From positions 1 through 64,000 of the forward strand of contig JAITQG010000003.1 in assembly GCA_031289015.1 (NCBI GenBank): a stretch of 64,000 nt of DNA. The letters run 5' to 3'. Under the pieces are notes generated by a model. That model was not told where the DNA came from and did no database searches. It saw nothing but the letters and a program-made list of their open reading frames with translations. A program made the translations under genes and the position numbers. Positions 3,535 to 23,577 of this stretch are shown one piece after another (positions within the stretch are counted from its first letter, which is position 1; the number at the start of each line of letters is the position of its first letter). Source of the DNA: Lactobacillaceae bacterium. GTDB lineage: Bacteria; Bacillota; Bacilli; Lactobacillales; Lactobacillaceae.

Positions 3535-3639
3535 TTCCCACCCCGCTATTTATCTCTGCTACCAAAACGAACTTACTATCCTAATAATACTGCATCTTGT
3601 TACTGATTGCGCTAATCAAACTTACTCCAAGCCATAAAA

Positions 3640-3668
3640 AAAGAAGCAAACCTAAATTTGCTTCTTTC
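3640..3668 (-). terminator. Rho-independent terminator of the GWTFD peptide gene
   Basis: On minus strand: GAAAGAAGCAAATTTAGGTTTGCTTCTTTTTTT. Confidence 0.8.
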
Positions 3669-3687: not shown

Positions 3688-3915
3688 TTAGTCAAACGTC
3701 CAACCAAGGGGCGTAATTACAACTGCCTTATTCTGGCCATCAAAAGTCCAGCCAAATGAGATAGCACCATTCAAATCGTCCTTGCCATCAAAAGTCCAAC
3801 CATCATCTGCCTGTGCACCACTAGTTGTGATATCAGCTGAAGCGATGATAGGGGCAAAGACGACAAAAGAAATAATTGCTAAAACCAAACCTGAAATAAA
3901 TGTTGTTTTTTTCAT
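3688..3915 (-). CDS. 75-aa secreted peptide precursor with three GWTFD repeats; candidate Rgg pheromone precursor
   Basis: ATG at 3915 with RBS AGGAG; MKKTTFISGLVLAIISFVVFAPIIASAD signal peptide; GWTFDGKDDLNGAISF/GWTFDGQNKAVVITPL/GWTFD*; own terminator. The track's 102-aa start is too far upstream. Confidence 0.85.
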   Translation of the reverse strand: MKKTTFISGLVLAIISFVVFAPIIASADITTSGAQADDGWTFDGKDDLNGAISFGWTFDGQNKAVVITPLGWTFD

Positions 3916-3956
3916 GATAAATCTCCTAAATTCAATACTTATTAGCTGTGTAATCG

Positions 3957-4007
3957 AGTATAACAAAGTAATTGGCCCTTTGCTAAAAAGTATCATATAT
4001 TACCCGC
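3957..4007 (-). promoter_or_regulatory. Peptide-gene promoter with candidate Rgg box
   Basis: Box AAAGTATCATATATTACCCGC (3987-4007), -35-like TAGCAA (minus, 3980-3985), 17 bp, -10 TATACT (minus, 3957-3962). Confidence 0.65.
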
Positions 4008-4858
4008 TTTTTAAAATCATCAAGATACTCTTGGCGTACATCGGCAATCGTGGGTTCCCCTAACCGCCGGAAAATAAATATCGCATCACTTGTCATTTGA
4101 TTGCCATTAACTACATGCCCCTTAGCAATCTCAAGCATACCTTTGACAAATAAGGCATGCGTTTCAACGTAAAACATGCGCTTTTTCGCCAACAGTTGAT
4201 CAACCAATTGGAGGAAATCTTGCGCTAAACTGAGTTCTTGATTCTCAATCAAGGCGCGTACCAAATTCAAAATTGCGCGTGCCATGTTTTGTTGATCAGT
4301 TGTATCCAATTTGGCATTCAAAGCCTCTCTGGTTAACTCATCCCCAAATAATTTGATTGATTCAGGTTTTAAAAATTTTGAAATCAAACTCAAAATGAAA
4401 ATTTCATATTTGGTCCAAATCGAATTTTCAAACAAGGCGTTCAATACATAATCAACCGTCTCACTGGCGGCTTCCTCATTTTGCAAATCAGCGATAACAG
4501 CTTGCAAAACATAGGCATTGACTAGATTAGGCTTTAATTTATCTTGGGTATACAAAGCTAATTGCTCAGCTGCTAGTTCACCCAATTTAGTGAAATCAGA
4601 TTTTATAATCGCCTCATTCACCGTACTAGTCCATTTGGGAAAATCCCAATAAATTTCGTGGTCATTGGCAATCGATAAGAACTCCTCCACTCCAACATCC
4701 ATGCGATTGAGGATGTACAGTAAATTCGTAAATTCAATTTGACTGACACCGCGCTCAAACTTACCAATAAATGACTTGGTTAAGCGGTCGCCACCCAGAT
4801 GTTCAGCTGAAATTTTCTTATCGCGGCGCAATAACCGAAGTGCTTCGCCATATTTCAC
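3983..4858 (-). CDS. Rgg/GadR/MutR-family transcriptional regulator (RRNPP-like)
   Basis: N-terminal HTH KYGEALRLLRRDKKISAEHLGGDRLTKSFIGKFERGVSQIEFTNLLYILNRMDVGVEEF; helical C-terminus; GTG start at 4858 with AAGGAGG RBS. Confidence 0.9.
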   Translation of the reverse strand: MKYGEALRLLRRDKKISAEHLGGDRLTKSFIGKFERGVSQIEFTNLLYILNRMDVGVEEFLSIANDHEIYWDFPKWTSTVNEAIIKSDFTKLGELAAEQLALYTQDKLKPNLVNAYVLQAVIADLQNEEAASETVDYVLNALFENSIWTKYEIFILSLISKFLKPESIKLFGDELTREALNAKLDTTDQQNMARAILNLVRALIENQELSLAQDFLQLVDQLLAKKRMFYVETHALFVKGMLEIAKGHVVNGNQMTSDAIFIFRRLGEPTIADVRQEYLDDFKKRVIYDTF

Positions 4859-5017
4859 AAATACATCCTCCTTGCTTCGTTGTAACTCACATGATAGCAC
4901 ACTATCAAACAAGATTTCAAAGTCCTCTTAGTCCCCATGCGACGGGCTTTGACAAAGTAAGCGGATACTATTTTATTTAGTTTGGCTAGTCGATTTCATT
5001 AGTTCCCAATATCATCT

Positions 5018-5068
5018 AATATAAAGTATCTTTTTACGCTCCTGCTTAAAGTAGCATATATTCCCCGC
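5018..5068 (-). promoter_or_regulatory. rgg promoter with second copy of the candidate Rgg box
   Basis: Box AAAGTAGCATATATTCCCCGC (5048-5068); -10 TATATT (minus, 5018-5023); spacing identical to the peptide promoter. Confidence 0.6.
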
Positions 5069-6774: not shown

Positions 6775-8838
6775 TTACAGATTCAAGAAGAAATACGATT
6801 CCTTATTGTCTCGAGAATCTTTGCTACTATCCCATTTACTACTATATACTCCAGATTCTTTGTGGAAGACTACGATATTCTTCTCATGTTGTGCGTCTAC
6901 CTCAAGGATTGTCGTCGTCCATTCTCTTTTCAGACGATAAAAGCCCCAGGTATAGTTTTGCAGATCGTTTGATTTTGCATCATTAAGGTTAAATGTATAT
7001 GTGCCTGACGTTAAATCAGCGGCTTTAACAGTTTTGTTCGTCCACGTAGATTTAAACCCGGCCGCCTCCAATTCTTCAAACAAGTTCGTATGCGCTGTCT
7101 TGGATCCAGGCCGAAAATACGTCAGAGCGGCGTCACGTAATTTGCGAATCTCGCCAGTCGCCATCCGCTTACTATAGTTAACATTATCAATGGTTTCATT
7201 ACTATGTTCTAGTGACATGAGCGCAAAATTAGAAATATTTTCAAAGCCAATTGCGCGATTAATTTGCCGGCCTAGACGATAAGCGTAAATCTTGCCATTC
7301 TTCCAATCATCTTGTTCATTATTTAACTTTTCTGTTGCCGCCTTATCATACTCAGTTGTGATTTTGGCATTGTTTAATAATATGATTGATTGCCCTGATA
7401 ATGATGACGTTGCCTCAATTTGGCTATCTGACAGCTCTGGTGCTCTTAATGCCTTACTGTTTTTATACCCAATGTAATCTTTGTCTTTTCTGATATTATC
7501 ACCAACATGGGTAATCCGCGTGCCAATTGCATCCAGTTGGGTTTTTACATTATCGTCATCCACGGGATCTAGATTTTCTTTTTTTAACTTTTCTAGTTCA
7601 GCTTGCCTTGCTTGGTACGTTTCTAACAAGCCTAAATTTTTATTCAAATCGTAATTAACCGCATACATTAATGGTGCCGAAACCAATTCATACCACGCCT
7701 CAATTTGGCCATTATAGTTTTTGCGGTCATTAAATGTTTCTGAATTGAAATTATGGCTCAAATTCTCAATGGCTTCTTCAACACTAAAAATATTCCCAGT
7801 TGATTGATCGCCGTATTCACCCGTCACTTGCAAAGCGAATTGTTTAAAGTCATTAATAAATGTGTAATTGCCTTCAATTAATTTACCGTTATCGTCCACC
7901 GAACCAGATGAATAGAGCTTCTGCAGGACTTGATCATTCAAATCGGCATCACTTTGTGAAAGCGTTTGTTTAGCATCTTGTTGCATGACAGCTGCCACAG
8001 CGTATAAACGATTGAGATTACTTTCAGAAAACATTTGTTCTTTGGCTTTGCTAAGCCCTGTTTTAGCAGCCTGCAATTCTTGCTTTTGTGCCTGGTCACT
8101 ACTTAATTCCATTGAAGTATTGAGTTGATCAGTCACTACATCTATTTGTTGACTAATCTGGTCTAGTTTTTCTTTGTACGGATCATGTTCTGGTTGCCCA
8201 CTGTTAATTAAATCCATAATCATGTTGACGGCTTGGAAAAAAGTGTCACCAAACACTAAACATTTCATGGCAGGACATTTAGCAAATTCCTTGCCAAACT
8301 CACCAATGTTTTTGGCCACTTCCGTCATGATCGCCCGGGCCATCGTCTTACCATCCGCCGCTAATAGGTTATTAGAAGTTGGCTGGGTGTTGTCACCAGT
8401 ATTGTCGTAAATGATTTTTGGAATAAAATCATCATGCAGCATTATTTTGACACCTTCATAATACTGTTGTCCATTTGCATCTAGTAAAGCTTGTTTGTTT
8501 ATTTTCAAATACCCATCTAAATCGCTACCTTTGATTTTAGCGGCATCCTTTTTAAAATGAACGATGACTTGTTGATCATCGATTTGCTGAATACTCGTGG
8601 TTACGGCTTTAGCAAATCCGTCTGTATACGTGATATCATCTTCTGAAATTTTACCCGCAAATTTACCATGGTTAACCTTGAATTCAATGGTGTAATTTGG
8701 TGTTTGCGCGTCTTGTGAATCTACAAGCGCACTGTTATTTACTCGGGTCAATGTCACATCGTCATAGGTGTCAGCATGTACAAACCCAACGTTTAATAAA
8801 ACTAATCCCGTTACAATGCTCGATAGAATTTTTTTCAT
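6775..8838 (-). CDS. Secreted 687-aa protein of unknown function, helix-rich
   Basis: Signal peptide MKKILSSIVTGLVLLNVGFVHA; N-terminal beta-like domain then long amphipathic helices; no family recognised. Confidence 0.75.
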   Translation of the reverse strand: MKKILSSIVTGLVLLNVGFVHADTYDDVTLTRVNNSALVDSQDAQTPNYTIEFKVNHGKFAGKISEDDITYTDGFAKAVTTSIQQIDDQQVIVHFKKDAAKIKGSDLDGYLKINKQALLDANGQQYYEGVKIMLHDDFIPKIIYDNTGDNTQPTSNNLLAADGKTMARAIMTEVAKNIGEFGKEFAKCPAMKCLVFGDTFFQAVNMIMDLINSGQPEHDPYKEKLDQISQQIDVVTDQLNTSMELSSDQAQKQELQAAKTGLSKAKEQMFSESNLNRLYAVAAVMQQDAKQTLSQSDADLNDQVLQKLYSSGSVDDNGKLIEGNYTFINDFKQFALQVTGEYGDQSTGNIFSVEEAIENLSHNFNSETFNDRKNYNGQIEAWYELVSAPLMYAVNYDLNKNLGLLETYQARQAELEKLKKENLDPVDDDNVKTQLDAIGTRITHVGDNIRKDKDYIGYKNSKALRAPELSDSQIEATSSLSGQSIILLNNAKITTEYDKAATEKLNNEQDDWKNGKIYAYRLGRQINRAIGFENISNFALMSLEHSNETIDNVNYSKRMATGEIRKLRDAALTYFRPGSKTAHTNLFEELEAAGFKSTWTNKTVKAADLTSGTYTFNLNDAKSNDLQNYTWGFYRLKREWTTTILEVDAQHEKNIVVFHKESGVYSSKWDSSKDSRDNKESYFFLNL

Positions 8839-21928: not shown

Positions 21929-21966
21929 ACAAATCAGCCCACACAAATTTGTGTGGGCTTTTTTTA
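21928..21966 (+). terminator. Rho-independent terminator
   Basis: AGCCCACACAAATTTGTGTGGGCTTTTTTT. Confidence 0.9.
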
Positions 21967-23577
21967 TGTATGGTCAGATGCATGGGTCGAAATTGTAAAG
22001 GTAACAATGTCAGACCACGTTCCCGCATATTTAAACTTGGGTGGCGTACCACTCGGGAATGCTGCATACACCTTTTTTATGTCTGGTGTATTGCGTTCTC
22101 CATCGGCAACAAACGTCAGCCCATCTGGGTGATCCTTTGAAAAATCATCTCCACCCGGCGTCAAGCCTAATTGATACGCGACCCCAGGTGTATCAGGATC
22201 AGCTGGGGTTGTTAGCTGCCATGCGATCGAATGGGCACAGACATTAATATAATGCGCCGCGGCTGGCAATTTGGGATTTGCGCTCAATACAATGTCGGCC
22301 TCACCTGTTTTAGTAGTTGAATCAAGCATAATGCTAGCCGGAATCGTCACGCTATAAGTTGATTGGACAGTATATTCGGCAAGTGAGCCACTTGAATGAC
22401 TTTGCCAGACATATGTATGCGTAATACCTTGACTATTATGATCATCGGCGATTTGATTACTAGCGACTTGATTGCCCAGGGGATCTTCTACATCGCCACT
22501 TACACCAACCTCACGCCACAAGGTTGAGCCAAGTTCACGACCATTATCAAATGATTTCCCTAGGTCACTGGCTGTAAGTTCTGGCAAATCGGCATCGCCA
22601 GGTAAGTTGAAATTGCCGCCTAATTTGATTTGCCACAGGCTGGTACATCCCAGCAAAAATGCATGTGTCTTGTCGACATGCGGTCCTGTTGACCATAATG
22701 ATAAGTCCAATTTTTGCAATGCGCTACACCCACGAAACATTTCTGACAAATCTCGCAATTTCGGGGTTTGCAAATTTGTTAAGTCAACGCTAATTAATGC
22801 TGAACAATTATAAAACATAAATTCGGTGTATTTCACATTATCAAACGTCCAGGCCGATAAATCCACTTGTGTTAAATTTATATCATTGGCAAAAACACCT
22901 CTGGCTATTTGTAAATAGGGCGTATGCAAATTGGATACATCTATGGTGGTGATTAAGGGCAAATCACAAAAAGTGAATGATAAGTCGACTACCGATTGCA
23001 GATTCCAATTTGCAATATCCAACTCAGACAAGGCGTGACAACTCGTAAAAGTGGCATACATCCGCTGCATATTTTGCGTATCCCAATTAGCTACATCAAG
23101 CTGCGATAATTGTTCATCACCACAAAACATATAGTCGGCATCTTCAACGTGTGCAACATCCCAAGCACTAACATCCAGCGTGGTTAGTTTGGGACAATTT
23201 GTAAATAAAGCATGCGCGTTAATCACCTGGGACATATCTAGGTTACTACCACCAATGACAGTCGTTAAATTGGCTAACGCTTGGAATAAACCTTCCGAAT
23301 CAGCATTCGCAATCACGCCTGGTTTAATTTCAATTTGCGTAATGTCATCAGCATCCCGTTTCCAGTCACCACTGGCCCCACTAATCCCTAGTTCACCAGC
23401 TTCAATAGTTAGTAAGCCAGCATTCAATGTCCAGTGGCACGTTCCAAAATCATCAGCATCATTACTAGCCGCATACACCGTTGTTGGTGCTCCAAGGCTA
23501 ATGTTTAATGCAGCCGGAGTGATAGCACCACTAATAATTATCACTAATAACATTAGCGCTTTAACAAATTTAGTCAT
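21964..23577 (-). CDS. Secreted BspA/DUF285 leucine-rich repeat protein
   Basis: Signal peptide; repeats LTTLDVSAWDVAHVEDADYMFCG / LSQLDVANWDTQNMQRMYATFTSC; no LPXTG motif. Confidence 0.85.
   Translation of the reverse strand: MTKFVKALMLLVIIISGAITPAALNISLGAPTTVYAASNDADDFGTCHWTLNAGLLTIEAGELGISGASGDWKRDADDITQIEIKPGVIANADSEGLFQALANLTTVIGGSNLDMSQVINAHALFTNCPKLTTLDVSAWDVAHVEDADYMFCGDEQLSQLDVANWDTQNMQRMYATFTSCHALSELDIANWNLQSVVDLSFTFCDLPLITTIDVSNLHTPYLQIARGVFANDINLTQVDLSAWTFDNVKYTEFMFYNCSALISVDLTNLQTPKLRDLSEMFRGCSALQKLDLSLWSTGPHVDKTHAFLLGCTSLWQIKLGGNFNLPGDADLPELTASDLGKSFDNGRELGSTLWREVGVSGDVEDPLGNQVASNQIADDHNSQGITHTYVWQSHSSGSLAEYTVQSTYSVTIPASIMLDSTTKTGEADIVLSANPKLPAAAHYINVCAHSIAWQLTTPADPDTPGVAYQLGLTPGGDDFSKDHPDGLTFVADGERNTPDIKKVYAAFPSGTPPKFKYAGTWSDIVTFTISTHASDHT

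Follow-up and report, generated by a model that had tools for sequence, protein, structure and literature searches.

Rgg Regulators and Probable Multi-Copy Pheromone Precursors

The precursors known for Rgg-controlled signalling belong to the SHP or ComS types, short peptides that PptAB exports (PMC9765709). In a survey, Rgg was never accompanied by a Sec-type propeptide, and none of 658 Rgg and 394 ComR precursors contained repeats; its authors suggested that peptide duplication may not be compatible with the way in which Rgg precursors leave the cell (PMC9765709). Here we describe a locus in the first 64,000 nucleotides of contig JAITQG010000003.1 of a Lactobacillaceae bacterium (assembly GCA_031289015.1; this whole stretch is called the window), in which an rgg gene is followed by a 75-amino-acid open reading frame (ORF) with a Sec-type signal peptide and three copies of the pentapeptide GWTFD. 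Judging from its sequence, the locus probably encodes a quorum-sensing circuit of the Rgg type that is complete in itself, its pheromone precursor being exported through Sec and containing several copies of the signal core.

On the receptor side, the systems to compare are the streptococcal pairs Rgg2/SHP2 and Rgg3/SHP3 (4yv6, 6w1a, 7ji0), which resemble the window locus in the family of the receptor and in having, next to its gene, a small ORF for an exported product. However, SHPs (about 22-23 amino acids in the control loci considered below) are divergently encoded, PptAB-exported and contain a single C-terminal copy of the peptide, whereas the window precursor has 75 amino acids, lies downstream on the same strand, is of Sec type and carries three copies.

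On the precursor side, cleavage of tandem Phr propeptides has been shown, for Rap/Phr systems, to release several active pheromones; Phr3T and Phr105 resemble the window locus in having an exported propeptide with several pheromone copies beside the receptor gene (PMC11343458), but they come from Bacillus phages and work with Rap receptors devoid of a DNA-binding helix-turn-helix (HTH) domain, whereas here the receptor is an Rgg regulator of a lactic acid bacterium. Repeats are also common in NprR, AimR and PlcR precursors, and in NprR/NprX, PlcR/PapR and AimR/AimP the receptor gene is followed by that of a Sec precursor in which the mature peptide recurs, an arrangement shared with the window locus (PMC9765709); their receptors differ from the present one in being Bacillales proteins. 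The repeated core in a Sec precursor is thus shared with the Rap, NprR, PlcR and AimR types, and the receptor type is not. The receptor family and the precursor logic are each known, and the novelty is their combination: a search by terms in an Rgg/SHP review from 2026 and a repertoire paper from 2025 brought up no Sec-type repeat precursor with Rgg, subscription literature lying outside the search.

The rgg Gene and the Repeat-Bearing ORF

The principal elements of the locus are the following.

3983-4858, minus strand: rgg regulator gene, 291 amino acids, GTG start at 4858, ribosome-binding site AAGGAGG at 4873-4867
3688-3915, minus strand: precursor gene, 75 amino acids, Sec signal peptide at residues 1-27 (cut between IASA and D) and 48-residue remainder with three GWTFD copies
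3787-3801, minus strand: repeat core 1, GWTFD (GGT TGG ACT TTT GAT)
3739-3753, minus strand: repeat core 2, GWTFD (GGC TGG ACT TTT GAT)
3691-3705, minus strand: repeat core 3, C-terminal GWTFD (GGT TGG ACG TTT GAC), followed by TAA

The regulator belongs to the Rgg family (PF21259 Rgg_C, 1.3e-24; TIGR01716, 1.8e-25) and has its architecture, with an N-terminal HTH and the Rgg C-terminal domain in about 290 amino acids. Its nearest solved relatives are Rgg2 (4yv6, 4yv9, 6w1a; full-length phmmer match, E-value 9.8e-20), which in the 4yv6 set comes from Streptococcus dysgalactiae (PMC9765709), and Rgg3 (7ji0). Along the minus strand the order is: a major facilitator superfamily (MFS) transporter gene (6620-5124), rgg (4858-3983), the 75-amino-acid ORF (3915-3688) and an L-lactate dehydrogenase-like gene (3534-2602). 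As the earlier note had it, the Sec-type ORF comes right after the Rgg-type gene, with 67 nucleotides between the rgg stop and its ATG; a gene for a small, putatively exported propeptide thus adjoins a receptor gene, as in RRNPPA pairs. The Rgg/SHP subtype, with a hydrophobic peptide gene of 20-35 amino acids, usually divergent and lacking a Sec-type site, is not what is found here: a neighbourhood scan gave no SHP-like ORF beside the window rgg, whose upstream neighbour is the MFS transporter gene. The same scan recovered, as a positive control, the divergent SHP-like ORFs MKKNLKFILMFLLVMDIIVIVGG (L261) and MKKYYQIFLLLLFDIIIIIGLYQ (L242) beside rgg relatives in the order. A 27-amino-acid ORF overlapping the rgg start (MGTKRTLKSCLIVCYHVSYNEARRMYL) was considered as a precursor and rejected, having no ribosome site.

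The precursor, MKKTTFISGLVLAIISFVVFAPIIASA followed by DITTSGAQADDGWTFDGKDDLNGAISFGWTFDGQNKAVVITPLGWTFD, starts at an ATG at 3915 behind an AGGAGA ribosome site (3927-3922). Its N-terminus shows a lysine pair, then a hydrophobic stretch and then a signal-peptidase I-like site at IASA/D, the signal peptides of this and of the second precursor described below having been called with a hydropathy script and by eye. The GWTFD copies begin at residues 39, 55 and 71, which is the exact 16-residue period announced in the earlier note; the third abuts the stop codon, so that the third unit is the 5-residue core alone. Neither Pfam nor NCBIfam gave a family match over cut-off, and a single-sequence AlphaFold model, of poor quality (mean predicted local distance difference test score, pLDDT, 55), shows nothing confidently folded past the signal helix.

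The repeat is well beyond chance. When the 48-residue mature part was shuffled, a 5-mer occurred three times in 0 of 200,000 shuffles and twice in 0.2%. Moreover, that the spacers have diverged while the core was kept, as also claimed before, is seen at the nucleotide level, where units 1 and 2 are 94% identical in the GWTFDG core and 37% in the ten spacer codons. None of the three variable positions among the core copies (GGT/GGC, ACT/ACG, GAT/GAC) alters the peptide; a random single change in the core would be synonymous in about 18% of cases, and three of three would come up by chance at about 0.006 (0.178 cubed), a simple estimate that assumes independent changes. Because the core is so much better kept than the spacers and changes only synonymously, GWTFD is conserved as a peptide, beyond mere duplication.

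A 21-Nucleotide Motif Common to Two Promoters

The following elements bear on the control of the two genes.

3987-4007, minus strand: copy 1 of the 21-nucleotide motif (GCGGGTAATATATGATACTTT), a putative Rgg operator that lies ahead of the precursor promoter, takes in the final codons of rgg and ends 24 nucleotides before the -10 box of that promoter
3957-3962, minus strand: -10 box TATACT of the precursor promoter, with TG at 3965-3964
5048-5068, minus strand: copy 2 of the motif, GCGGGGAATATATGCTACTTT, upstream of rgg and ending 24 nucleotides before the distal -10 box
5018-5023, minus strand: -10-like TATATT of the distal rgg promoter

The motif, GCGGGNAATATATGNTACTTT, occurs twice in the genome (2.08 Mb in 73 contigs), with no further occurrence when 3 mismatches are allowed, and both copies stand at the identical distance of 24 nucleotides from a TATA[CT]T -10 box. 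A motif common to two promoters with a fixed geometry is the expected trace of a regulator that controls its own gene and that of the precursor. From this position, we infer that the window Rgg would be the regulator acting there.

Another rgg Gene with a Repeat-Bearing ORF on Contig 55

An Rgg domain search of the bacterium's own genome gave two strong matches, two weaker ones in tandem on contig 31 and a further match below cut-off. The second strong match lies on contig 55, in a pair that spans 2176-3286 of L197.

L197 2420-3286, minus strand: second rgg gene, 288 amino acids

Located 98 nucleotides downstream of it, a 48-amino-acid Sec-type ORF (MKKFIAVIITFAFVGALAVNVFATGQISAGIGDSTIIHSEGIGDAFQD) carries SAGIGD ... 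SEGIGD with an 11-residue spacing. Its GIGD copies differ at 3 nucleotides, all synonymous, and a 6-mer repeat of equal quality arose in 0.25% of shuffles. The part past the signal peptide measures about 25 residues and holds a Gly-rich repeat unlike that of the first precursor. The two Rgg proteins are 22% identical and align over half of their length, and the second locus is for this reason no recent copy of the window locus. Its promoter region contains a perfect inverted repeat, GTGGAATTTTTTCCAC, present once in the genome without mismatch, and a palindrome, ATGAGCGCTCAT. The palindrome GTGGAANNNNTTCCAC of the locus has its sole exact match in the genome here, but a control pattern gave more near matches, so that it is informative for its uniqueness alone. 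ORFs resembling CRISPR Cas1 and Cas2 (292 and 91 amino acids, L197 367-1521; named by eye) adjoin the locus.

The genomic background of such ORFs was sampled over 1.34 Mb (64%) of the genome, filtering small ORFs for a ribosome site and a signal-peptide-like start; both rgg loci were included deliberately and the remainder was taken unselected. There were 8 strict and 27 relaxed candidates, and a repeated 4-mer was present in 2 of the 27, precisely the two ORFs that follow rgg. If two of the 27 were drawn at random to carry the repeats, they would be exactly those two with a probability of 1 in 351 (about 0.003).

Considering both pairs, we lean slightly towards the view that this lineage possesses a branch of Rgg quorum sensing of its own, whose pheromone precursor is exported through Sec, contains several copies and is encoded after the receptor gene, with at least two systems in this one genome (GWTFD and GIGD) and very divergent receptors. 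Such a branch would run counter to the published idea that Rgg export and peptide duplication do not go together.

Distribution in Other Genomes

The earlier note had proposed a search for the peptide/rgg pair in other species, and this came out empty. No homologue of the precursor was present among 61 relatives (matches only at E-values above 0.02) or on the plasmids searched. A pattern of two WTFD cores was also looked for in all GTDB species representatives (85,000 species), a set that may lack the records closest to the window's genome. Of its 97 matches 80 were listed, and none of the loci inspected from it was a candidate: they were discarded as relatives, being either low-complexity repeats read out of frame or proteins of unrelated phyla. 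As for the window Rgg, a pattern search found no relatives in genome contigs or viral contigs, none exceeded 29% identity in the genus, and identities reached about 28-29% at most across 400 genomes of the order, the two samples together giving about 25-29%. The second Rgg had no match at an E-value of 1e-15 among 250 other genomes of the family. Synteny through the MFS gene did not help, the nearest copies in the genus being at most 55% identical and not usable as orthologues.

In turn, 136 Rgg-type genes in 117 loci, mostly of Lactobacillaceae, yielded no further repeat-bearing Sec precursor of the GWTFD or GIGD type. Two other ORFs flagged beside Rgg-type genes lack a ribosome site and are probably reading frames that arose by chance. 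In another Lactobacillaceae genome (L133 974-1267, minus strand), a 97-amino-acid secreted-type ORF downstream of an rgg gene contains HWSK twice and many Trp and Tyr residues; it is possibly bacteriocin-like.

A Possible Signalling Route and Its Alternatives

Export, trimming, import, binding and feedback we infer from what is known of the family. Rgg would bind both copies of the 21-nucleotide box, the one ahead of the precursor promoter and the one ahead of the distal promoter of rgg itself. The precursor would leave the cell through Sec, with signal peptidase I cleaving behind IASA; proteases at the outer surface would then trim the 48-residue part, freeing peptides that end in GWTFD from up to three sites. 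These might be brought back by an Opp-type importer, the genome encoding six oligopeptide-binding proteins of the SBP_bac_5 family, and the peptide-bound Rgg would alter transcription at the promoters that carry the box, closing a feedback loop. As a first guess, the mature peptide would be LGWTFD or GWTFD, since the C-terminal copy needs a single cut. The anatomy of the locus (receptor, downstream Sec precursor, repeated cores), with the trimming and Opp import proposed here, fits a Bacillus-style route applied to an Rgg receptor. The proposal of the earlier note, an Rgg regulator beside an exported multi-copy pheromone precursor, is partly supported, with independent evidence from the private motif, the second pair, the cores kept at the peptide level in both precursors and the importer proteins.

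If this is true, two cases in one genome overturn the surveyed absence of Sec-type or repeated Rgg precursors, Rgg receptors can use a Bacillus-style route of export and trimming, and detection tools tuned to SHPs overlook Rgg systems in Lactobacillaceae. Furthermore, the locus offers concrete peptide, operator and receptor candidates for testing in a lactic acid bacterium.

Several points weigh against such a circuit. The window precursor departs from the norm of the Rgg family, as the surveyed Rgg precursors have neither Sec export nor repeats. The homologous pair was not found in the other species searched. No shared box was found upstream of the second rgg, whose locus has palindromes of its own. 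Finally, the 21-nucleotide motif is not clearly palindromic, and a different regulator could bind to it.

The alternative that best survives, although we regard it as unlikely, is that the 75-amino-acid ORF encodes a secreted effector regulated by Rgg, i.e., a small antimicrobial, adhesive or wall-binding protein in which the repeats are functional units and from which no signal returns to the regulator. Neighbouring secreted products are often under the control of an Rgg regulator, the box ahead of the precursor is compatible with simple regulation, and Trp-containing repeats could bind membranes or glycans. Nevertheless, a structural role common to both precursors is a poor fit to the second one, so short past its signal peptide, Gly-rich and with a different repeat; no Pfam or NCBIfam family is matched, the model without a confident fold argues weakly in the same direction, and both repeat ORFs stand directly after rgg and nowhere else in the sampled 1.34 Mb.

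A distinctly less probable reading is that the ORF does encode a pheromone whose active peptide derives from the signal peptide, through an Eep/RseP-type cut as in the enterococcal sex pheromones, or from the C-terminal copy only, the inner copies remaining unreleased. Eep has been discussed as the protease that processes the peptides of Rgg, ComR and PrgX (PMC9765709), and one cut suffices for the C-terminal copy. However, in both precursors it is the cores, and not the intervening residues, that are kept at the peptide level, which argues that the inner copies matter, and the last core of the second precursor precedes AFQD and is consequently not exactly C-terminal.

That the small secreted ORF merely happens to lie beside rgg, with a repeat due to chance or neutral tandem duplication, is very improbable: the failure to find a homologous pair in the other genomes searched would agree with it, but the private two-copy box with identical spacing at both promoters, the second independent case in the same genome, and the solely synonymous core changes beside spacers at background identity all speak against it.

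Other Features of the Locus and the Window

Besides the elements that carry the circuit proposed above, two further ones accompany its genes.

3636-3668, minus strand: terminator-like hairpin and T-run 3' of the precursor gene (GAAAGAAGCAAA / TTTGCTTCTTTT), seen by eye and absent from the list of the consensus scan
4891-4920, minus strand: proximal rgg promoter-like site, TTGAAA-18-TATCAT

The proximal rgg promoter contains a small inverted repeat, GATAG-TGTG-CTATC (4893-4906), noticed by eye. Elsewhere in the window, a 687-amino-acid secreted-type protein (6775-8838, minus strand) has no Pfam or NCBIfam family over cut-off, and a secreted leucine-rich repeat protein of the DUF285/BspA type (21964-23577, minus strand), which may be a surface adhesin, has a single AWTFD that is probably fortuitous.
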